Source: Euonymus europaeus
Taxonomy: Eukaryota > Streptophyta > Magnoliopsida > Celastrales > Celastraceae
Assembly: GCA_963580455.1 (NCBI GenBank)
Contig: OY756960.1
Coordinates: 5,766,001 to 5,830,000, forward strand
DNA: 64,000 nucleotides
Direction: 5' to 3'
In this document: in pieces, positions 52,631 through 63,830 of the stretch
How the letters are laid out: every line of letters starts with the position of its first letter
How positions within the stretch are numbered: position 1 is the first letter of the stretch
Translations under genes and position numbers: made by a program
Notes under the pieces: model-generated
Databases searched by the model: none
What the model was told of the DNA's origin: nothing
What the model saw: the letters and a program-made list of their open reading frames with translations, nothing else

Positions 52631-53994
52631 TGTCGCAACCGATTTTGCAAAAGAAAATTTTAAAAAAGTCGCCACCAATTGTAATAGGTGCAATTGGTCA
52701 CCATAAAAATAGTTTGGTCTGCGAAAATTCAAAAAACGGGTAAGTGAATTTATTACATATGAGAAATGTGTAAGGCACCCCACAATGTCTGTTTTAAAAA
52801 CAGTTGCTAATTTAACTTTCATTATCCCATTAAATGATTTTTTTTAAAACATTAATTGGGACGAAAATACGTATATAAGGTAAAATAATTATACAAATTA
52901 TATAAAACTACATAGGATAAAATAATCTTAGAAAATATAAAAACTATACCGAAATAGGATAAAATAATTTAAGAAAATATAAAACTATATCAAAATAAGA
53001 TAAAATATTTTTAGAAAATATATAAAACTATATCAAAATAGGATAAAATAATTTAAGAAAATATAAAACTATATCAAAATAGAAAAAATAATTTTAGAAA
53101 ATATATAAAAACTATATCAAAAGTCTAATATTGAGGTTCATGGAATTCTTCCATCTAATGGTTAAATTTTCAAGAAACACTCTCATCTCAAGAATCTTTT
53201 TGAGGGTGCATCCAATGCATTCCCCAAATTAATTTCATCGTAGGTTAAGACTTTCAATATAATTTTTATATATAAATAAATATAAAATATGTAAGTTTAA
53301 AATTAAATAATAATAATAATAAATAAAATAATAATGGATAAAAATATAAAAATTGAAATAAAAATAAAACGAAAATAATAATAATAATAATAATAATAAA
53401 ATGAAAATAAAGTAAAAAAAATAAATGAAAATAAAATGAAAATAAAAATAAGTAAAATAAATAAAAATGAAAATGAAAATAAGTAAAATTAAATTAAATT
53501 AAATTAAATTATAACAAAAATAAAATGTTGGGGAACTAAATTTTTATGGACTATACAATATTGAATTATTGCAAATCCCATTTCAAGCATACTAACACAT
53601 CAAATCAAGTAATCGATACATAAATCAAGTAGCACCAAATCATCATTTGCATAACACATTAACATGTTGAACAATTAATAAACATAATGAATGAGACCTC
53701 GATTCCCCCTTTTTTTATTGGCAATCGATTATCCCAACCATACTATTAAATTAGTATGATTGAAATTTTATAACTAGTTGTCTTATGAAAATTAATATAT
53801 TAAAGACCTCTTAAGGAATTTCATTAAATCCGTTCCATCCAATGCTTGGGAATTCCCTAAATATTTCTCCTCAAGAATCCCTTCAGCATGGCATCTAATG
53901 TAACCCAATTGGTTCCATCGTCGGACATCAAATCACAACTAAAAGCTTAATACATTGATTTTTCATTCACATATATGAGTGATACGTATATATT
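52631..53994 (-). repeat. Truncated Ogre-type LTR (third copy, divergent)
   Basis: It starts TGTCGCAACCGATTTTG and follows the Ogre LTR landmarks in order: GGTGCAATTGGTCACCAT, AAGGCACCCCACAA, GAGGGTGCATCCAATGCATT, AAAATGTTGGGGAAC, CATTAACATGTTGAA, TTTTTATTGGCAATCGAT. It is more diverged than the 13.5/28.7-kb pair and ends abruptly where the Tat element begins at 53995. Confidence 0.85.
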
Positions 53995-54344
53995 TGTAGT
54001 GTCCAAAAAATAACCCAGGTACACACTTAATTTCTTCTCTCAAAATCCAGTCCCCTTTCTCTATTTCATATCTTCTTATTTATAGAGGATTAGATACACA
54101 GTAATTACATCTCCCATCTATGGGATTGGACCCACTATAAATATATAAATTCTTAATTTATTAAAGAGAGATCGACCATCTCCCCTCTTGTACAAAGAAA
54201 TAAGCCAAATGGCATATGGCCGAACTGTAAAGTATATGCGTTCGGCCAACTCCATCTCTTAAAATCTCTCCTCCCTTTTTCCTCTGCAGTTCATTTTCGC
54301 CACATCTTCCTTTGCCACATGGACCTCTGATATATGGCCCCACA
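53995..54344 (-). repeat. 3' LTR of the Tat element
   Basis: 350 bp, TG...CA, differing from the other LTR at only a handful of positions, which indicates a recent insertion. It abuts the truncated Ogre-type LTR. Confidence 0.92.
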
Positions 54345-54359
54345 ATTGCCCCCCAAAGG
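54345..54359 (-). other. Polypurine tract of the Tat element
   Basis: The minus strand reads CCTTTGGGGGGCAAT directly before the TGTGGGGCC start of the LTR. Confidence 0.7.
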
Positions 54360-54458
54360 CAGTCTAGACTAATTATGGACGTGACTTTGCAAAATGTTGA
54401 GCCCTGATTGGGTTGTGTCTCATCAGTTTAATGCGGAGAGAGAATAACTTTCTCTTCT

Positions 54459-54466
54459 TATAAATA
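54459..54466 (+). promoter_or_regulatory. TATA box of the antisense gene
   Basis: TATAAATA on the plus strand, in the context TTCTTATAAATAGGACC, about 200 bp before the first in-frame ATG at 54668. A consensus donor-like TTGTG|GTGAGT at 54580 raises the possibility of a 5' UTR intron. Confidence 0.55.
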
Positions 54467-54667
54467 GGACCTTGGATATTTCTTTCCTCCCTTATCTTGA
54501 GAGCGACTTGTCGTTTAAGCCGTGGTTTGAAGCCGATCTTCGTGTGGAGCTCCATTCATTGTGCCGATCTAGTTTTGTGGTGAGTTTTATTGACTGAATC
54601 TGTTATTTTGCATCGACTGTTACTATCGATCACTTCTTTCTGCTGTCTTTTCGTCCTGGTTCCGTTT

Positions 54668-56881
54668 ATGGGGAAGTACAAGAAAATATCGAGAGATTTT
54701 AATGAACTCCGAGAATGGGGCAGGAAGTTCGGCTTTCCATCGGAATGTGAACTGAGTGTTGCTTCTGAAGCCGATCCCACTGAAGGCCGAGCTAAATTTC
54801 CAATGGTTGCCGTAGTGGAGGGAGGGCTCAGATTTCCCTTATCTGAGTTCTTTAAGGGATGCCTTGATATATTCGGCCTTGCACCTCATCAGTGGAACTC
54901 GAACTTTTACCGGATAGTCAACGGCGTAAATATTTTAAATAAGTTTTACAGGTTTGGCGTTAGACCAAGGGACTTGGAACACAGTTTCTATCCCAAAAAG
55001 TGTGGTCAACAAAACAAGTTTCATCTGTTTCCTAGGTACGGAAACAAACCTCTGATTCATTGCCTGCCTTCTTCCTCCAAGCATGATGAAATTGAATTCT
55101 TTCTAATAGGTGAGTCAGGATGGGAGTTCGATCCTCAAATGGGCGAACGAGGTATCTCGATCCGGAGAAGATCCGGTTCCCTCACCCCGTTCCCTTCAAA
55201 CAAGGAGATTAAAGAGAGAGGCGAGTGTTTGGCCCTAACGCGGCTTATTGACCACCTCGGACCTCTTGGTATTCACCCATTTGGCCGATCTGCTCCCTAT
55301 CTATTGGGGTATTCCCCATCTGTGGCTCCCAGCACTCATCTTCCTCCGAACACTTCTGTGGAGAGGGTGATGATTTTCTTTCGTCAGTTCAACCCAGCCC
55401 ATGGACTTATAAATCAAATCCCAACCTTGGACACCTCAGTTGAGCCGAACTCGTCCTCTGCAAGCTCAATCAGATCCTTAGGGAATCTATCTTTGCCCTC
55501 GGACATAGAAGGTTGGATGGAAGGTCTCCATCCACCCAGTACGTCTGACTGATGTTCGGCCAGCTGTATCTTTTTTCTTTTTTTTTGTGTTTTCTTATTC
55601 ACATCATCGTTTTCTGATATTGAATCAGTAACTAAGACTGATCGGCCAATAAATATTACTTATTTATATATTCATTTATTTATTTTTAGATTCTTCTCAA
55701 GTCGAAGAGGTGATGGCAAGACGTCCCCTTGCTCCATTGTTCGGCTCAGGAAGCAAAACAACAAGCAACTCGTCCGCTCGCCAAAGGCCGGACAGTACCG
55801 CACCAACACGACTCCAATCACTCCCTCCTCCTCCACCTCCTCGTCAAGGGAAGAGGTTACTTTCGGAGACTGAGGAAGGTCGGCCTCGCAAGAAGGCCGC
55901 TCTGGTGAGAAGCTCCCGAAGTTCAGCCTCTCCGAGCCGCCGATCCGAAGAAGGGTCGTTGACCTTTTCACCAACACTTGATGGCCAACCTTTGTCAAGA
56001 GGTTGTTCAGTTATGGATCGAGGGGTCGGCATCTCCCTTCGAGCTGTGGCATCTGTACCAGCTGACTCAGGAAGATGGAGGGACTGTCCTGATGCCGAGC
56101 TCTGTGACTACCTTGGCCGTTTTATGATGCAAGTATGTTCTCCCCTTTTTTTTTTACTATATTGGTGATTTACATAAATATCTAAATTTATACATCATTA
56201 TTACTTTTTGGTTAGGCATGTCAGGTCCAAAATGAGCTAGAAGAGAGAGACAACCGTGACAGGGAGGATCATATCCGCCTCGTTCAGGCACAAGATAGGT
56301 TGAAATCTCAGCTTGCAGGACTGAAGGCCGAACTCAAGGATTCACAATCCGAGGCATCTGCTAAGAACTTTGAGCTCGAACGTTGTAAGGCCGATCTCTC
56401 TCTGGCCAAGGAAAAAATCAAAAAATTGGAAATTGACTTGAAGGATACCCTTTCATCAGTTTCGGCCAGAGAAAAGAAGGCGGCCGATCTTGCTACGGAA
56501 AGGGCAAATGACGAGGCTTTTGAGGAGTACACTGGCTACCTCAGAGAGCAAGGCAACATGGCCTATCTCATGGGGAGGGGCGATCTTCTGAAGGAGATGG
56601 AGATCCCTAAGGAATCCCCTTTTTGGGCCCAGGATAAGATCAAGTTCTCTTCGTTGGAAGCACCCCAGCCGAGCATACTTGATATTTTCTTTCCCACCTC
56701 CGCCGATCTCAACATTGATCCTTCCGCATCCGCACAATCGGTTGGTGTTGATACAACAACGGTTGTGCTTGATGATCCGGTCACTTTAGATCATGAGACG
56801 GAGAATGTTGATGGGGATGAGGACGTAGCCGATCATGGAGGAGAAGACGATGTTTCTGTAATTTTAGGTTTAGCCAGTTAG
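54668..56881 (+). CDS. Antisense three-exon gene in the Tat element (Transposase_28-like protein)
   Basis: Exon 1 54668-55538 (donor A|GTACGT), exon 2 55690-56132 (acceptor TTTTTAG; donor CAA|GTATGT), exon 3 56216-56881 (acceptor GGTTAG). Both joins keep frame and bypass the stop codons after each exon, giving 659 codons. Exon 1 starts MGKYKKISRDFNEL and contains GGLRFPLSEFFKGCLDIFGL, HQWNSNFYRIVNGVNILNKF and YPKKCGQQNKFHLFPR, resembling the 'putative gypsy type transposon' domain (Transposase_28). Exon 2 is Pro/Ser-rich with a basic patch RPRKKAALVRSSRSS (possible nuclear signal). Exon 3 is a coiled coil (LKSQLAGLKAELKDSQSEAS) with an acidic tail. It runs opposite to gag-pol and has its own TATA box. 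Antisense extra ORFs are known in Tat elements; their function is unknown. Confidence 0.8.
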
Positions 56882-57030
56882 CCTTGGTCTTACTTTCTTC
56901 TTTTTCCATATTTGTCACATGTATCAGACCTATCTTTTGAATTCTAATGTTTGTTTGCCCGTTTTGAATTATTTCCATCATTTTTTATTATTATTATTTT
57001 ATTTTTTTTTGAATTCTAATGTTTCTTTGC

Positions 57031-57661
57031 CTGAAGGCCGATCTGACGACCCAAACCTCATTTGTTAGAGAAAACCCTTAAGGTTTTTTAGGAAACCCCT
57101 TGCAGGGAAGTCACTAGGACTTTTTTAGGTCCGCAGCCTGATGGTCGATCTGACGACCCAAATCTCATTTGTTGAGGAAAACCCTTAAGGTTTTTTAGCA
57201 AACTCCTTGCAGGGAAGTCACTAGGACTTTTTTAGGTCCGCAGCCTGATGGCCGATCTGACGACCCAAACCTCATTTGTTGAGGAAAACCCTTAAAGTTT
57301 TTTAGTAAACCCGTTGCAGGGAAGTCACTAGGACTTTTTTAGGTCCGCAGCCTGATGGCCGATCTGACGACCCAAACCTCATTTGTTGAGGAAAACCCTT
57401 AAGGTTTTTTAGCAAACCCCTTGCAGGGAAGTCACTAGGACTTTTTTAGGTCCGCAGCCTGATGGCCGATTTGACGACCCAAACCTCATTTGTTGAGGAA
57501 AACCTTTAAGGTTTTTTAGCAAACCCCTTGCCGGGAAGTCACTAGGACTTTTTTAGGTCCGCAGCCTGATGGCCGATCTGACAACCCAAACCTCATTTGT
57601 TGAGGAAAACCCTTAAGGTTTTTTAGTAAACCCCTTGCAGAGAAGTCACTAGGACTTTTTT
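57031..57661. repeat. Tandem array, six copies of 107 bp
   Basis: CTGATGGCCGATCTGACGAC (or a close variant) recurs at 57031, 57138, 57245, 57352, 57459 and 57566, an exact 107-bp period. Each unit includes CCTCATTTGTTGAGGAAAAC and GGGAAGTCACTAGGAC. It lies in the 3' UTR of gag-pol and just downstream of the antisense gene. Confidence 0.95.
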
Positions 57662-57775
57662 AATTATTTTTTTTTATGAGGAAATTTGTCGACTTGCTTT
57701 ATTCACCCCTCAAGTGGAGTAGGATGGGGTTAACGCTCATATAGGCGTCCCCAATTTATTACAGCAAAAGTCTAG

Positions 57776-58741
57776 TTAAACAAAGAACTTCCTCAAGTTT
57801 GTTGCATTCCAAGGCCTCTGGATTACTTTTCCGGACATATCCTCGATCTTATATGCCCCATGGCCGACTACAGCATTGACTTTGTATGGGCCTTCCTAAT
57901 TTGCCCCCAATTTTCCGTCCTGCGGGTTCTTGGTGTTAAAAAGTACTTTCCTAAGTACCAAGTCTCCAGGTTGGAATCTCCTCATTCGAACGTGTTTTTC
58001 ATGAAGATTTTTTAAACTGTGCTGGTAGGACGACAATTTTAGAGCCGCAAGTTCCCTTTTTTCCTCACTGAGATCTAGGTATAGCGCGACGGATTCATCA
58101 TTTTCACCCATTTCGAAGGCAGTAGTCCTGATGGTTGGGAGACCAATCTCCAATGGGATAACAACCTCCATTCCATAAGTGAGGGAGAAAGGTGTATGTC
58201 CGGTGGACCTTCTTGGGGTAGTTCTCTGAGTCCAGAGTATGCTCGGGAGTTCATCGACCCATCTTCCTTTTGCATGTTCTAGACGTTTCTTTAGTCCGTC
58301 AAGAACGATTTTGTTCGAGGCCTCGGCCTGGCCGTTACCTTGAGGGTAAGCCGGTGTTGAATATTTGTTCTTTATCCCATACCCTGAACAAAAATTTTGG
58401 AACGCCTTGCTATCGAACTGGGTTCCGTTATCAGTAACCAGTGCGTATGGAATACCATATCTTGTTATGACGTATTCCCATATGAATTTTTTTGTCTTTG
58501 TGTCCGTAATTTTTGCTAATGGCTTTGCCTCGATCCACTTTGTGAAGTAATCGGTAGCCGTTATCAAATACCTCCTATCCCCTGTCGCCCTTGGCAACGG
58601 ACCTATGAGGTCTAGTCCCCATTGGGAGAAGGGCCATGGACTTGTCAAAGTGCTTAAGCTCATTGCTGGCTGTCGTGGGATGTTTGCAAATTTTTGGCAC
58701 TGTTCACAACTCCTTGCGTACGCCCTCGAATCTTCATGCAT
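57776..58741 (-). pseudogene. Tat element integrase
   Basis: CEQCQKFANIPRQPAM ends the zinc domain. The DDE core has WGLDLIGPLPRATGD, VTDNGTQFDSKAFQ and TPAYPQGNGQAEASNK. The frame meets a TAG at 57896-57898 where the family has Trp (GAN*EGPYKV), then continues in frame to GHGAYKIEDMSGK and a natural stop at 57776. The 5' boundary is a frameshift: the RNase H/linker frame ends ITRVLVATDA at 58734, whereas GY*WPRMHED is in the integrase frame. Thus there is one deletion plus two nonsense codons in otherwise intact sequence. Confidence 0.88.
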
Positions 58742-60920
58742 CCGTGGCCACTAATACCCGTGTAATAGCTCGCTGAGCCATTGATCGTCCACCAATATGG
58801 ACTCCGCAGCTTCCCTCATGTATTTCATACAATAGCTGATCATTTTTCTCTGGAGGGACACATAATAGGTAAGGCCCTGAAAAGGATCTTCTATACAAAT
58901 TTCCGTCTGGGGAGAGCCAAAATCTTGAGGACTTCATCGTGATCTTTCGTGCCTCTTTCACATCATCCGGAAGTTCTCCTTTTTCGAGATATCGAATCAA
59001 GGGATCCATCCAACTGGGCATCAATTCCGTTTGTTCAATTTCTGGTCCTTCCGCGATTATGCTTGGCTCTTCTAAAATGTCTACGGTTATCGTCCGCCTT
59101 ACAACATTCTGTTCGGCAGAAGCTAGAGTAGCCAAAGCGTCAGCATGAGTGTTCTGTCCTCTTGGGATCTGCTCGATCTCAAAATCTTCGAGTTTCTGCA
59201 ACATTCTCTTGGCTTCGGCTAGATACGCAATCATGGATTTTGTTTTTGCGGAATACTGTCCGGTCAATTGGTTGACTATCAATTGCGAATCCGAATTAAT
59301 TTTCAACTTTTTTACCCCAAGCTTAAGTGCACTTCGAAGTCCACACAAAAGTGCTTCATACTCCGACTCATTGTTTGTTGTTTTGAAACCCAGCCTAATG
59401 GCCTGCTCGATAGTGAGTCCCTCTGGAGAAGTTAGCACTATCCCTGCTCCTGAGCCTCTTCTGTTTGAAGATCCGTCTACCATTAGTTCCCATGTATTGG
59501 GCGGGAGAACTTCTAGGACCCAAAGCATTTCTCGTTCTTCTGGGGGCGGAATGGAAAACTCAACTAAGAAGTCTGCCATGACTTGTCCCTTAACGGCCAT
59601 CCTGGGGACAAATTGTAGTTCATACTGTCCCAGTTCAAGGGCCCACTTTGCAGTCCTTCCCGTTATATCAGCTCTAGAGAGGACACTTTTCAACGGGTAC
59701 GCCGTGACCACTTCAACTGGATGACTTTGGAAGTAATGATTCAACTTTCTCGTGGCTATCACCAGGCTATACAATAACTTCTCGAGAGGAGTGTATCTTG
59801 TCTCAGCACCAAGCAATGTTTTGCTTACATAGTAAATTGGTTGTTCTTTCCTCTCCTCTTCTCTTAAGAGGACTGCACTGACAGCTACTTCGGAAACGGC
59901 CAGGTACACCCTCAACTTTTCTCCGACTTTCGGGGTTGCAAGGAGCGGAGCCCTTTGGAGATAACGTTTTAAATTGTCAAGCGCCAAGACACATTTTTCA
60001 TCTCATTCAAACCGCTTAGCACCTTTAAGGAGTTTGAAAAACGGATGGCACCTGTCAGAAGATCGACTGATGAATCTATTGAGGGCGGCCGCCATACCTG
60101 TCAACCTCTGGACCTCCTTGATAGTGTTCGGCCTCCTCAGGTTTTCTATAGCAACAATCTGGACTGGATCTGCTTCTATCCCTCTTCTTGTCACAAGATG
60201 GCCGAGGAATTTCCCTGAGCTAACCCCAAAAGCGCATTTTGAAGCGTTCAGCTTCAGTCGGTAAGATTTTAACACATCAAAAACTGATTGAAGGTCGGAA
60301 AGATGATCCTCCTCTCGTGTTGACTTAACCACCATATCATCGATGTACACCTCAACCGTTCGTCCTATCATCCGTTCGAACATTTTTGTGACTAGTCGCT
60401 GGTAGGTTGCCCCCGCGTTCTTCAGTCCGAAGGGCATGACCTTGTAACAGTACGTTCCCCTCGGAGTGATGAACGAAGTTTTCTCCTGATCTTCAATCCT
60501 CATTGGTATTTGATGGTATCCCCTATAAGCATCCAGGAAGCTCATCCTCTGGCTCCCCGATGTGGCGTCCACGAGCTGGTCAATTTTCGGGAGAGGGAAC
60601 AAATCTTTTGGGCACGCCTTATTCAAGTCGGTGAAGTCTACACAAACTCTCCAAGTTCCATTCTTCTTCTTGACCACAACTGTGTTTGACAGCCATTCCG
60701 AGTATTCTACTTCTCGAATAGCATCCGCCTCCATAAGCTTTTGTACTTCTTTCACAACGGCCTCCGCATGTGCCAAGGCCGATCTCCTAGCCTTTTGGAT
60801 GACAGGTTTAAATTGTGGTCGAACACTCAAATGATGACTTGCCACCAAGTAATCAATCCCTGGCATCTCCTGTGGAGACCAGGCGAATGCTCCTACATTC
60901 CTTTTCAACAACCCGATCAA
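58734..60920 (-). pseudogene. Tat element reverse transcriptase and dual RNase H
   Basis: RT begins [16 protein letters not shown] and includes [46 protein letters not shown] and [12 protein letters not shown], with the catalytic DD intact. A TGA at 60003-60005 replaces the Trp of the FEWDEKC-type motif. RNase H (LRVYLAVSEVAVSAVLL) and the archaeal-type RNase H (WELMVDGSSNRRGSGAGIVL, TTNNESEYEALLCGL, INSDSQLIVNQL) follow in the same frame, then NTHADALATLAS. Only the one nonsense codon interrupts about 720 codons up to the linker. Confidence 0.9.
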
Positions 60921-61713
60921 GGATTCTCTCTCGTCGGGGGGGGGGGGGGGGGAGATTGGCTCCTATCAGGAAGTATCGCTCCTCGTTTTTTCCATCAATC
61001 CTAATCTTCTCGAGCTTCTCCTTGGATTTTCTCTCCGGATCGGTTCTTGGCTCGGGTTCAACCTCTGACTCTCCGACCATGGTACTGACCTGGTGGGCTT
61101 CCTTCGTCGCACCGGACATTTGGTAAGTCGAGGGGACGGCCTCCATCGCGTGTAGCCATGGTCTGCCCAAAATTGCATTGCTAGCTGTTCTACCTTGGAC
61201 TACCAAGAACTCCATTGATATGATTTTTGGGCCAACACGCACATCTGTTATTACCTTGTCTACCGGGTACACCTGGTGACCATTGAATCCAACCAAGCAG
61301 GCTGATTCCGGCATAAGATTACTTTGGGTAAGACCCAACTTTTCGAACACCGGGTAGTACAGCACATTTACTACGCTACCTTGATCCACTAATACTTGCT
61401 TCACATCTCGTCCGCACACTCGCACTGTCAAACGAAGGGCATCATTATGGGTCGGATCTATTCCAATTAGGTCCCTATCCCCAAATATAATGTCTACCCC
61501 CGTTCTTCTTGCTCTTTTAATTGTTGGCCCTTCATATGGGTTTGGCTGCCGTCGAGACACCGCGCTGTTCACATCAGTCTCCGGACGTGGCCTAACGAGG
61601 TTAATTACCTCTATTGTCTCAATTGGGTCATCATATATCTTTTCCGTTAGGGCTACACCTTTATCATTGGCACGTGGGTTCTCTGCTTCATTATTTCTTA
61701 GAAACTTTGACAA
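60853..61713 (-). CDS. Tat element aspartic protease
   Basis: Contains [20 protein letters not shown], the active-site region [16 protein letters not shown] (D-Q-G where the lineage usually has D-T-G) and [19 protein letters not shown]. Near its end the frame passes through a G17 tract (C17 on the coding strand, encoding Pro) at 60936-60952. Beyond the tract the RT sequence is in another frame, so this ORF's last 28 codons are out-of-frame reading. The protease would process Gag-Pol. Confidence 0.85.
60936..60952 (+). repeat. G17 homopolymer at the protease/RT junction
   Basis: Seventeen consecutive G on the plus strand (C on the coding strand). ANLPPPPP precedes it in the protease frame, and [10 protein letters not shown] follows it in the RT frame, so the reading frame of the polyprotein depends on tract length. 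Confidence 0.95.
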
Positions 61714-61736: not shown

Positions 61737-63068
61737 CTAAATGGCTCTGAAGATTACGACAATCCCCTGTTCCGTGGCATGGTCTTTATGGAATGCACAA
61801 AGTTTCTTGGGATCTCTTGTTTTAGGATCGGTGAAAAGCTTTGGTGGTCTGATAATGTATGGCTCGCCCTTGATCTCAGCAAAGATCCGATGGATGGGGG
61901 TATTAAATTCCACAGAATTGACCTGCCCCCTATCCGGTCTTCTTTGATATGATTGGTATCCATATGATCGGTCATTACCTCCTGTTCTTCCTTGCTGCGT
62001 TTTGCACTCATCCCTTTTCGGGGAGAGTGGTTTCTTCCCCTTCACAACTTCTTCCTTCGCTTCTACTTTGGAGTATCTTCTCACCCGATCCTGCAATGTC
62101 TTAACCGAGTTTGGCTCATACAGAGTCAGTGATTCTTTCAGTCTACTCCCGCTTGGCAATCCCAATTTGAAAGAGGAGGCTGTCATATGATCGTCACACC
62201 CGTCTACATCGGCGCACAGTTCCAGATATCTGGCTAGGTAGTCGGTCATAGACTCTCCACTATCTGGCTTCATTGTGAGGAGGTTGCTCAAGGTCTTCGG
62301 CTCGTGACTTCCCGCAATAAATCGATTTATAAATTGCTTGGCCAAACCCCTCCAGGTTGTTACTGAGTTCGGCGCCAAACGATGGAACCATCGGGCGGCA
62401 ACAGGCCCCAACGACGAGGGGAAGACCTTGCACAGGATGGCCTCCTCCCCGACCCATAGGATCATTTTTCTCATGTAATGGTCCAAATGGACAACTGGAT
62501 CCGTTCGACCATTGTAATGTTCAAAGGTTGGTACCATCAATCTTCTCGGAACTTCACTTTTTCTAATTTCTCTAGTGAATGGGGATGAAGTAATTTCATC
62601 TAATGCCTTCATGGCTCGCTCTTGAGCTCCATATATAAGGTCAGCTCTTCGTGCGTCAGGCTCCTCGTTCGCTTTTTGGTACTTCGCTTCTCTAGGCCTT
62701 TCATGACCATCTGCACGATTCGAATAACGGTCATCCTCCAAGATCTGTCCGCGTTCACGTTTTTCATACTCCTTCCTGGTGGTGGAGTGTCGATCTGGAG
62801 AGTATCTCCTCCCCATTCGTGGAGCCACTATCTCCATCCCTGTGGATCTTTTCGGAGGACTGCCCATTGGGCGTTTCCCCTTCTGGTTGACGACCGCTAA
62901 ATCTCGTTTCAACGTCTCAAGGTAGCGGGTTGTTCTTTGAATCTCATCCTCCATTTCTTCGGCAGCGGGGCGAATCGCGACATTCTCTCGCTCGTCCCGA
63001 GGTGTTTCCTCCTCCTGAAGGAGGTTTGGGGAATCATTTTCTCCGGCTGCTTCTGACTTGATCGCCGC
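61737..63068 (-). CDS. Tat element gag
   Basis: The start is MAAIKSEAAGENDS at 63068 (the longer open frame to 63152 runs into the LTR). The N-terminal half is charged and Arg-rich. The gag core is at about residues 190-330: RRLMVPTFEHYNGRTDPVVH, VAARWFHRLAPNSVTTW, LAKQFINRFI and LLTMKPDSGESMTDYLARYL. Near the end CAFHKDHATE begins the zinc-knuckle-like H-DTEDC-type motif, but a one-base deletion near 61770 shifts the frame (GDCRNLQSHLEDLAKQ lies in the protease frame). Confidence 0.88.
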   Translation of the reverse strand, partial: AAIKSEAAGENDSPNLLQEEETPRDERENVAIRPAAEEMEDEIQRTTRYLETLKRDLAVVNQKGKRPMGSPPKRSTGMEIVAPRMGRRYSPDRHSTTRKEYEKRERGQILEDDRYSNRADGHERPREAKYQKANEEPDARRADLIYGAQERAMKALDEITSSPFTREIRKSEVPRRLMVPTFEHYNGRTDPVVHLDHYMRKMILWVGEEAILCKVFPSSLGPVAARWFHRLAPNSVTTWRGLAKQFINRFIAGSHEPKTLSNLLTMKPDSGESMTDYLARYLELCADVDGCDDHMTASSFKLGLPSGSRLKESLTLYEPNSVKTLQDRVRRYSKVEAKEEVVKGKKPLSPKRDECKTQQGRTGGNDRSYGYQSYQRRPDRGQVNSVEFNTPIHRIFAEIKGEPYIIRPPKLFTDPKTRDPKKLCAFHKDHATEQGIVVIFRAI

Positions 63069-63101
63069 CATTCTTTCTTTGTAACGTGGGTTTGCTATAT
63101 C

Positions 63102-63120
63102 GCTCCCACTGTGGTCGCCA
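63102..63120 (-). other. Primer-binding site of the Tat element
   Basis: The minus strand reads TGGCGACCACAGTGGGAGC, starting two bases after the 5' LTR. It begins like the Ogre site (TGGCGAC) but differs afterwards; I cannot name the tRNA with certainty. Confidence 0.6.
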
Positions 63121-63122
63121 AA

Positions 63123-63472
63123 TGTAGTGTCCAAAAAATAACCCAGGTACACACTTAATTTCTTCTCTCAAAATCCAGTCCCCTTTCTCTATTTCATATC
63201 TTCTTATTTATAGAGGATTAGATACACAGTAATTACATCTCCCATCTATGGGATTGGACCCACTATAAATGTATAAATTCTTAATTTATTAAAGAGAGAT
63301 CGGCCATCTCCCTTCTTGTACAAAGAAATAAGCCAAATGGCATATGGCCGAACTGTAAAGTATATGTGTTCGGCCAACTCCATCTCTCAGAATCTCTCCT
63401 CCCTTTTTCCTCTGCAGTTCATTTTCGCCACATCTTCCTTTGCCACGTGGACCTCTGATATATGGCCCCACA
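63123..63472 (-). repeat. 5' LTR of the Tat element
   Basis: 350 bp, near-identical to 53995-54344, TG...CA. Confidence 0.92.
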
Positions 63473-63476
63473 ATTA

Positions 63477-63818
63477 CATGGTGTAGTGGTAGTGTCCCTC
63501 TCTCTCTACCCACGGGTCATGGGTTCGAGGCATCCTCTACGCAAAAATGCGACAATGAGGGCTCGGCCGAGGGAGGGAGGGGCACGGAGGTAATTATTGG
63601 TGTGGGGCCAAAGGAGGAGCGTACCCTCACCTCCCACACCAAAAGGTGCCTTTTTGTAGGAGGAATTTTTATTACGCCACGTGCCCCCATTGTCACGGAT
63701 AGCGTAGGGGATGCCACGTGGACTTTATTATTCTCCGCACAATTGTGCAACCTCCCCAGCTCGAACCCGCCCCCTTAAGGACTTAGTAAGGCAAGAGCTG
63801 GTACCACTACACCACTAG
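63477..63818. repeat. tRNA-related inverted repeat (SINE-like heads facing each other)
   Basis: The left end reads ATGGTGTAGTGGTAGTG with GGGTTCGAGGC 53 bp later; these resemble the A box and B box of a tRNA gene. The right end read in reverse is AGTGGTGTAGTGGTACC with GGGTTCGAGCTGG. Two tRNA-like heads therefore point towards each other around a 200-bp centre (containing GTGCCCCCATTGTCACGG). It abuts the Tat LTR. It could be a composite of two SINEs or a foldback element; I do not recognise the family. Confidence 0.55.
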
Positions 63819-63830
63819 TGGAGGTATGTA

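Follow-up and report, generated by a model that had tools for sequence, protein, structure and literature searches.

A spliced antisense gene under purifying selection, with a TRP28-type domain, in a Tat/Retand retrotransposon of Euonymus europaeus

Introduction

Can the strand opposite to gag-pol in a plant long terminal repeat (LTR) retrotransposon hold a genuine spliced gene, and does its protein matter to the element? The question is raised by a stretch of 64,000 nucleotides from Euonymus europaeus (contig OY756960.1, positions 5,766,001 to 5,830,000; hereafter the window), where a Tat/Retand-type LTR retrotransposon of 9.5 kb lies on the minus strand and a three-exon reading frame with similarity to the TRP28 domain (PF04195) runs on the plus strand between pol and the 3' LTR. 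The antisense TRP28 gene as such is already known: such an open reading frame (ORF) was found in 97% of Retand clusters (Vicient 2025, PMC11963269), while an earlier survey, restricted to ORFs of 250 codons or more, reported it from 23% of Retand elements (PMC6317226). Whether the antisense extra ORFs in plant retrotransposons function at all was asked by one large survey, and a DNA-related regulatory role was proposed for the antisense TRP28 genes by another (PMC11963269). Here we show that the gene in the window has conserved introns in related copies, that its protein evolved under purifying selection in all three exons, and that its region was exchanged between pol lineages.

Results

The gene model proposed in an initial annotation of the window, made from the letters alone, was reproduced in all its parts: three exons joined through two consensus introns give a frame of 1,980 nt (659 codons and a stop) with no internal stop, and this model is the longest among 3,080 GT-AG pair combinations leaving an open frame (Table 1). 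Under the same strong-site rules, the plus strand gave 689 codons from stop to stop and the opposite strand 112, while 200 dinucleotide shuffles of the region gave a longest spliced frame of 125 codons on average and 239 at most. The upstream TATA box was also found, as TATAAATA at 54459, with TATAAAT aligned at this site in 18 of 23 genomic copies. The 209 nt from the box to the start codon contain no ATG in the window copy, a condition reached by 4.5% of mononucleotide shuffles; the leader is ATG-free in 13 of the 23 copies, two of which (L004 and L022) have shortened leaders. RNY (purine, any base, pyrimidine) codon bias was weak and uninformative. An additional intron in the 5' leader (GTGAGT at 54580) was considered and dropped, as no acceptor was seen by eye ahead of the ATG.

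The copies came from the host genome (443 Mb), in which 23 matches to exon 2 were scored, the window included; this count is a lower bound, and the genome thus holds at least 22 further copies of the antisense gene. They were oriented and aligned before splice sites and frames were counted, and the counts include dead copies. Intron 1 kept its GT...AG ends in all 23 copies. For intron 2, which is deleted in L009, GT was kept in 22/22 and AG in 19/22 of the copies retaining it, the altered ends being those of L006, L008 and L020. Intron lengths varied from 125 to 275 nt (intron 1) and from 52 to 129 nt (intron 2) and fell into all three classes modulo three. Invariant columns numbered 8 of 151 in intron 1, six of them at +1, +2, +3, +6, -2 and -1, and 2 of 83 in intron 2, which were +1 and +2 only. 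Since the splice ends stayed largely constant while the intron interiors diverged, the copies confirm the gene model. The same exon layout was present in L022 and L023, whose exon 1 is only 66–69% identical, and other TRP28 genes of the genome are ~24–38% identical, which contradicts the recent acquisition that had been suggested for this gene. Exon 1 of the window copy has an in-frame gap of 45 nt, which none of the other 22 copies shows, and a gap of 3 nt lies at the start of its exon 2. By eye, the first ~90 codons of exon 1 in L008 appear replaced by other, internally repetitive sequence.

Selection on the protein was read from codon positions and from the ratio of nonsynonymous to synonymous divergence (dN/dS, or omega). 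Between subfamilies, all three exons showed a third-codon-position excess in the spliced frame (seven pairs), and the introns showed no comparable periodic excess, with small counts. Differences at positions 1/2/3 were 97/67/242 for the window and L012 and 108/96/317 for the window and L014. The dN/dS values were 0.15 (bootstrap 0.11–0.19) for window-L012, 0.11 (0.08–0.15) for window-L014 and 0.10 (0.07–0.14) for L012-L014, at dS of 0.8–1.8, the larger values of which are near saturation and make omega approximate there. By exon, the same three pairs gave 0.08–0.12 for exon 1, 0.14–0.18 for exon 2 and 0.08–0.15 for exon 3. A closer pair, window-L002, had 11/18/25 differences (p 0.066) and omega 0.38 (0.22–0.71), and the closest pair, L011-L012, had 8/10/8 with an uninformative omega of 0.71 (0.30–2.11); the lack of periodicity in the latter is expected because copies drift and decay after insertion. 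The purifying selection between subfamilies indicates that the lineages which spread translate, or once translated, the protein. The view of a genuine spliced antisense gene under selection therefore holds, on dN/dS of 0.10–0.15 between subfamilies together with the third-position excess and the kept splice sites.

A comparison of dN/dS with pol, which the initial annotation had proposed, gave similar values: pol pieces had 0.04–0.12 for window-L014 and L012-L014, and the antisense omega of these diverged pairs (0.10–0.11) falls within that range. For window-L012, a close pair in pol, the pol pieces gave 0.17–0.36. Of the 22 other copies, 15 were examined for pol: tblastn matched it in 14, each time antisense to the gene and beyond it, and not in L007. 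In the 13 copies with reverse transcriptase (RT), RNase H (RH) and integrase (IN) all found, the gene carried 27 disabling lesions (1.05/kb) and pol 43 (1.10/kb); the tally was made by hand, and the value for pol errs on the low side, as the pol reference pieces lie between the window's own lesions and some pol sequences are partial. Nothing in these counts clearly suggests that the gene is better preserved than pol in chromosomal copies. By a hand Poisson estimate, a 2-kb frame would escape any hit with a probability of ~0.2–0.3 at the lesion density of the window's gag-pol, and of 0.12 at that of the antisense genes in other copies. Given the similar lesion densities and open frames in only 2/23 copies, chance suffices to explain an intact frame in a young copy such as that of the window.

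The gene and pol have different histories. The window shares 96.6% identity with L012 in IN, 96.6% in RH and 94.3% in RT, and 79.4% in the antisense exons; with L009 it shares 91.0% in the gene, 84.0% in IN and 82.6% in RH. For 14 copies, the gene tree and the tree of IN plus RH rejected each other (approximately unbiased test, p 5e-65 and 3.6e-6); the trees cover the window and the 15 copies examined for pol, less L018 and L007, which lacked pol pieces. In identity profiles against the window, a jump occurs close to the edge of the 107-bp tandem array, which separates the gene from pol and is present in 21 of 23 copies (absent from L018 and L021). With a two-rate model, the step fell at 56982 (L005, L009), 57022 (L013), 57093 (L012) and 57104 (L011), the array starting at 57029; L014 had the weakest step, at 57070, and L003 an earlier one, inside exon 3, at 56695. 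In 6 of the 7 copies tested the step is thus at 56982–57104, the gene-side edge of the array. An identity step alone could stem from different rates in gene and array, and it is the tree conflict, not the step, that shows exchange. Divergence varies along pol too, so recombination was not confined to the array edge. The gene region was accordingly exchanged between pol lineages, with most inferred breakpoints near the array. The claim that selection keeps the gene independently of gag-pol, drawn from a single intact copy beside a broken gag-pol, is only partly right: after insertion the two decay at similar lesion densities, and the independence seen is of another kind, a conflict of the gene phylogeny with that of pol.

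In L003, the antisense protein has a C-terminal tail like that of the L011–L013 group and a remainder like that of the window, with the breakpoint within the coding region. In L003, L011, L012 and L013, the first unit of the array has diverged further than those that follow it.

A PF04195 search of the genome scored 150 of 601 candidates, all 150 above the cut-off, and found no match in 14 control genomes. Thirty TRP28 loci fell into nine groups. Other TRP28 genes are ~24–38% identical to that of the window over 39–146 residues, and a distant member of the window family (L056) matches all exons, with 71–73% identity in exon 1 and 51–52% in exons 2 and 3. A second family shows 24–27% identity over ~122 residues where matched (L046, L049, L050); among the 5 of its 9 loci examined, GT...AG was present at intron 1 in 5/5 and at intron 2 in 3/5, and all three predicted exons had a third-position excess in diverged pairs. 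A third family of three loci had intron 1 intact in 2/3 and intron 2 in 3/3; its internal pairs are too close for a third-position excess, and comparison with the second family shows it. Intron 1 aligns between these two families. Pol is antisense to the gene in three of three other-family loci checked as well. The intron finder, run on 17 other TRP28 loci, takes the longest frame without a shuffle control, and only the second and third families are used as evidence; it gave no gain in 4 of the 17 (L067, L060, L047, L042).

A fourth family, which is abundant, shows to the eye a candidate intron of 81 nt that is in frame. In L059, L060 and L068 of the abundant family, which has many frames of 486 codons, the length of the candidate first intron is divisible by three and the intron is stop-free, leaving one long ORF.

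The PF04195 check proposed for the spliced product gave a divided answer: the whole protein scored 25.3 bits, below the cut-off (gathering score) of 26.2, and exon 1 alone scored 26.5, above it. Related copies (L014, L016, L017, L019) reached 30.1 bits. The conserved TRP28 positions are listed as G21, P25, L34, P46, N47 and F55 (PMC11963269); in an ungapped comparison by eye the window protein matches at G, P, L and N and has S for P46 and V for F55. In exon 2, the basic cluster at residues 345–359 is present in varied form across the aligned copies. By eye, it resembles a bipartite nuclear localization signal (NLS). Exon 3 ends in an LGLAS-type C-terminus in most aligned copies and had only sub-threshold Pfam matches. 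A structure prediction, another of the proposed checks, was uninformative: for exon 1 without an alignment the mean pLDDT (predicted local distance difference test) was 32.7, and the model was not used. Neither the spliced protein nor exon 1 had a homologue over threshold in a large protein collection (7,990 and 532 candidates scored), and no relative of exon 1 was confirmed in viral contigs or prokaryote genome contigs (2 and 31 pattern matches). These empty searches probably reflect the scarcity of plant sequence in the collections.

The host element is summarized in Table 1. Its LTRs differ at 7 sites (98.0% identity), from which an age of ~0.8–1.4 million years was computed with rates of 1.3e-8 and 7e-9. 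The stretch adjoining the 3' LTR is, by eye, a probable polypurine tract. On the minus strand the domains follow each other as RT, RT_RNaseH, RVT_3/RNase_H and rve, the Ty3/gypsy order with an additional RNase H. Ogre and Retand of the Tat clade share such a second RNase H, placed between the first and the integrase (PMC6317226), and its presence before the integrase marks the element as of Ogre/Retand type. The pol-3'LTR region of ~3.5 kb (54348 to 57895), the internal region of ~8.8 kb and the LTR of 353 bp are all within the published Retand ranges (2.9–6.6 kb, 7.4–12.9 kb and 315–1,194 bp; PMC11963269), and the antisense TRP28 ORF of the pol-3'LTR region, a further mark of Retand, is present by a narrow score (exon 1, 26.5 vs 26.2 bits). 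Gag, protease (PR), RT, RNase H and integrase lie in separate frames. The disabling mutations reported earlier for gag-pol were recovered: read by hand from the frames, pol changes frame at PR/RT and again at RH/IN, and a stop codon in frame separates RT from RH; gag and PR also differ in frame, perhaps through a lesion. No matching 5-bp repeat was seen by eye at the LTR ends (53990–53999, 63470–63480), so no target-site duplication was found. This absence despite 98% LTR identity may mean that the element itself is a recombinant insertion or that its ends were altered.

Table 1. Features of the antisense gene and of its host element in the window
Feature	Position	Strand	Remarks
3' LTR	53995-54347	-	353-nt pair, 98.0% identical
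Probable polypurine tract	54348-54360	-	adjoins 3' LTR; by eye
TATA box of antisense gene, TATAAATA	54459-54466	+	sequence; TATAAAT aligned in 18/23 copies
Presumed 5' leader	54467-54667	+	ATG-free between TATA box and start codon
Exon 1	54668-55538	+	290 codons + 1 nt; TRP28 (PF04195) at residues 46-92
Intron 1	55539-55689	+	151 nt, GTACGT...TTTTTAG, phase 1
Exon 2	55690-56132	+	proline-rich, basic; residues 345-359 (55851-55895) form a bipartite-NLS-like cluster
Intron 2	56133-56215	+	83 nt, GTATGT...GGTTAG, phase 0
Exon 3	56216-56881	+	coiled-coil-like stretch (by eye), acidic tail
107-bp tandem array	57029-57662	none	5.9 copies, between antisense gene and pol
Integrase portion of pol	57896-58741	-	PF00665 9.7e-14
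RNase H, then additional RNase H	58734-59987	-	PF17917 residues 23-122, PF13456 residues 170-288
Reverse transcriptase	60003-60920	-	PF00078 7.6e-35
Aspartic protease	60853-61713	-	PF13650 1.9e-5
Gag	61737-63152	-	PF03732 1.5e-9
5' LTR	63123-63475	-	partner of 53995-54347

Outside the element, the sequence next to the 5' LTR (63476–63830) begins in a tRNA-like manner (GGTGTAGTGGTAGTG...GGGTTCGAGGC) and is perhaps a short interspersed nuclear element, judged by eye only. Long A+T-rich tandem arrays with periods of 41, 84 and 67 lie to the left of the element (52881–53508).

Discussion

We interpret the frame as a TRP28-type antisense accessory gene of a Tat/Retand element, a small spliced gene of cellular type that codes for a putative nuclear regulator acting on the element, and give this reading a probability of roughly 0.85. 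The likeliest function, as judged from sequence, is that of an element-encoded nuclear regulatory protein, with DNA or chromatin binding being putative. The nuclear chromatin or DNA-binding factor of the initial annotation is plausible from the varied basic cluster and from the literature on Grande gene23 of maize, an antisense gene with its own promoter and a nuclear product (Vicient and Casacuberta 2020, PMC7264820).

The likeness to known systems extends in several directions. Position, orientation, TRP28 domain, long pol-3'LTR region, array beside pol and sizes agree with Retand elements as surveyed from ORFs of at least 600 bp plus shorter ones with TRP28 (PMC11963269); unlike in that survey, the gene here has three exons, and its constraint and exchange were measured. 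Grande gene23 likewise occupies the region from pol to the 3' LTR as an antisense accessory gene, with an upstream promoter of its own; its product is nuclear, whereas for the window protein there is the basic cluster at 345–359 only, and the likeness is by description (PMC7264820). HBZ and APH-2 of human T-cell leukaemia viruses (HTLV) are antisense nuclear regulators inside retroelements (PMC11963269), a functional analogy with no claim of sequence relation; antisense transcription of HTLV has its promoter inside the 3' LTR (PMC7264820), whereas the TATA box of the window is outside the LTR. Ogre, also of the Tat clade, uses host splicing (cited in PMC6317226), but its intron is in the sense gag-pol RNA, while the introns of the window are antisense and not removable from genomic RNA. 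The word intron is absent from the text of PMC11963269, and passages of PMC11728184, PMC3091746 and PMC12786077 contain nothing on introns of antisense Retand genes. Introns in these genes thus find no mention in the papers searched, though Gomez-Orte 2013, Kejnovsky 2006 and Steinbauerova 2011 may report them. As far as searched, the conserved introns, the measured constraint, the predicted introns in other TRP28 families and the exchange between pol lineages are new.

Several observations weigh against this reading. The antisense frame is broken in 21 of 23 copies and fully open in 2, and the window copy may be silent. The window protein sits at the margin of TRP28 similarity, just below the cut-off as a whole and just above it in exon 1. 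The nuclear role is proposed from a basic cluster recognized by eye and by analogy with a paper on a different element, and Neumann 2019 asked whether the extra ORFs function at all, given their fast divergence between groups (PMC6317226). A single ancestral promoter and intron pair for TRP28 genes is not shown: a TATA-like box lies within 450 nt upstream in only 2 of 6 loci (L056, itself of the window family, and L059), intron 2 fails to align between the second and third families, and intron 1 lies ~121–123 residues past the domain start in these families vs 245 in the window. Because of this different distance, common ancestry with the window introns is not established.

If the proposed reading is right, polymerase II would start at the TATA promoter, which lies past the polypurine tract and ahead of the ORF, and make a transcript opposing gag-pol. 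Removal of the two introns would give an mRNA for a protein of ~660–677 residues with the TRP28 domain, a basic stretch, a coiled-coil-like stretch and an acidic tail. The protein may enter the nucleus through the basic cluster of exon 2, could self-associate through exon 3, and would act on DNA or chromatin of the element itself, most probably to the benefit of the element's expression or integration. The introns would survive retrotransposition owing to the antisense orientation, because reverse transcription copies a genomic RNA in which only their complement is present. Strong constraint despite possible trans complementation of broken copies hints at some preference for the protein-making copy (cis preference).

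Other explanations fit the data less well. That open frames and splice sites arose by chance on the opposite strand of a retrotransposon could be argued from the 3,080 GT-AG combinations that leave some open frame; this explanation is refuted by the comparative data, as splice sites and frame are conserved at synonymous divergence of 0.8–1.8, and 200 shuffles reached 239 codons at most vs 689, so that it keeps virtually no credence. It is very improbable that the element recently captured a host gene, or that the host has domesticated an element gene at this locus, as one might suppose from the intact frame beside a broken gag-pol: the gene is present family-wide and beside pol in 14/15 copies, lesion densities of gene and pol are alike in other copies, and a hit-free 2-kb frame is unsurprising (0.2–0.3 or 0.12 by the hand Poisson estimates). 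The antisense transcript might also act mainly as RNA, by forming dsRNA or interfering with sense transcription, with the protein secondary, and antisense retroelement transcripts can indeed feed silencing or regulate sense RNA (PMC7264820). A role as RNA alone predicts no codon bias of substitutions, whereas dN/dS of ~0.1–0.15, the third-position excess in three exons and the conserved introns require selection on the protein, which makes a mainly RNA-based role improbable.

A separate matter is the cause of the discordance between gene and pol, for which we infer template switching during reverse transcription. Gene conversion at the DNA level between chromosomal copies would produce mosaics just as template switching would, and the tandem array that most steps adjoin can promote conversion too. 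Nevertheless, L011 and L012 carry the same mosaic on different contigs, which means that it formed before their spread, and high-frequency recombination between family members in transposition bursts is documented for Onsen (PMC5668417); we therefore regard conversion as unlikely, with more room left to it than to the alternatives above.

In conclusion, the selection on three exons and the conserved splice sites are, for the window family, a strong argument that the spliced protein matters to the element. We lean slightly towards a wider view, in which Retand-type elements are two-gene elements whose antisense cassette (TATA box, three exons, two introns) encodes a selected nuclear regulator and can be swapped at the flanking array, the antisense orientation letting the spliced gene survive. 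If this is true, surveys based on uninterrupted ORFs, which can split and undercount spliced antisense genes, would cut such genes apart and underestimate both their frequency and their constraint. That an antisense regulator cassette is exchanged between lineages is a hypothesis testable in any plant genome rich in Retand copies.

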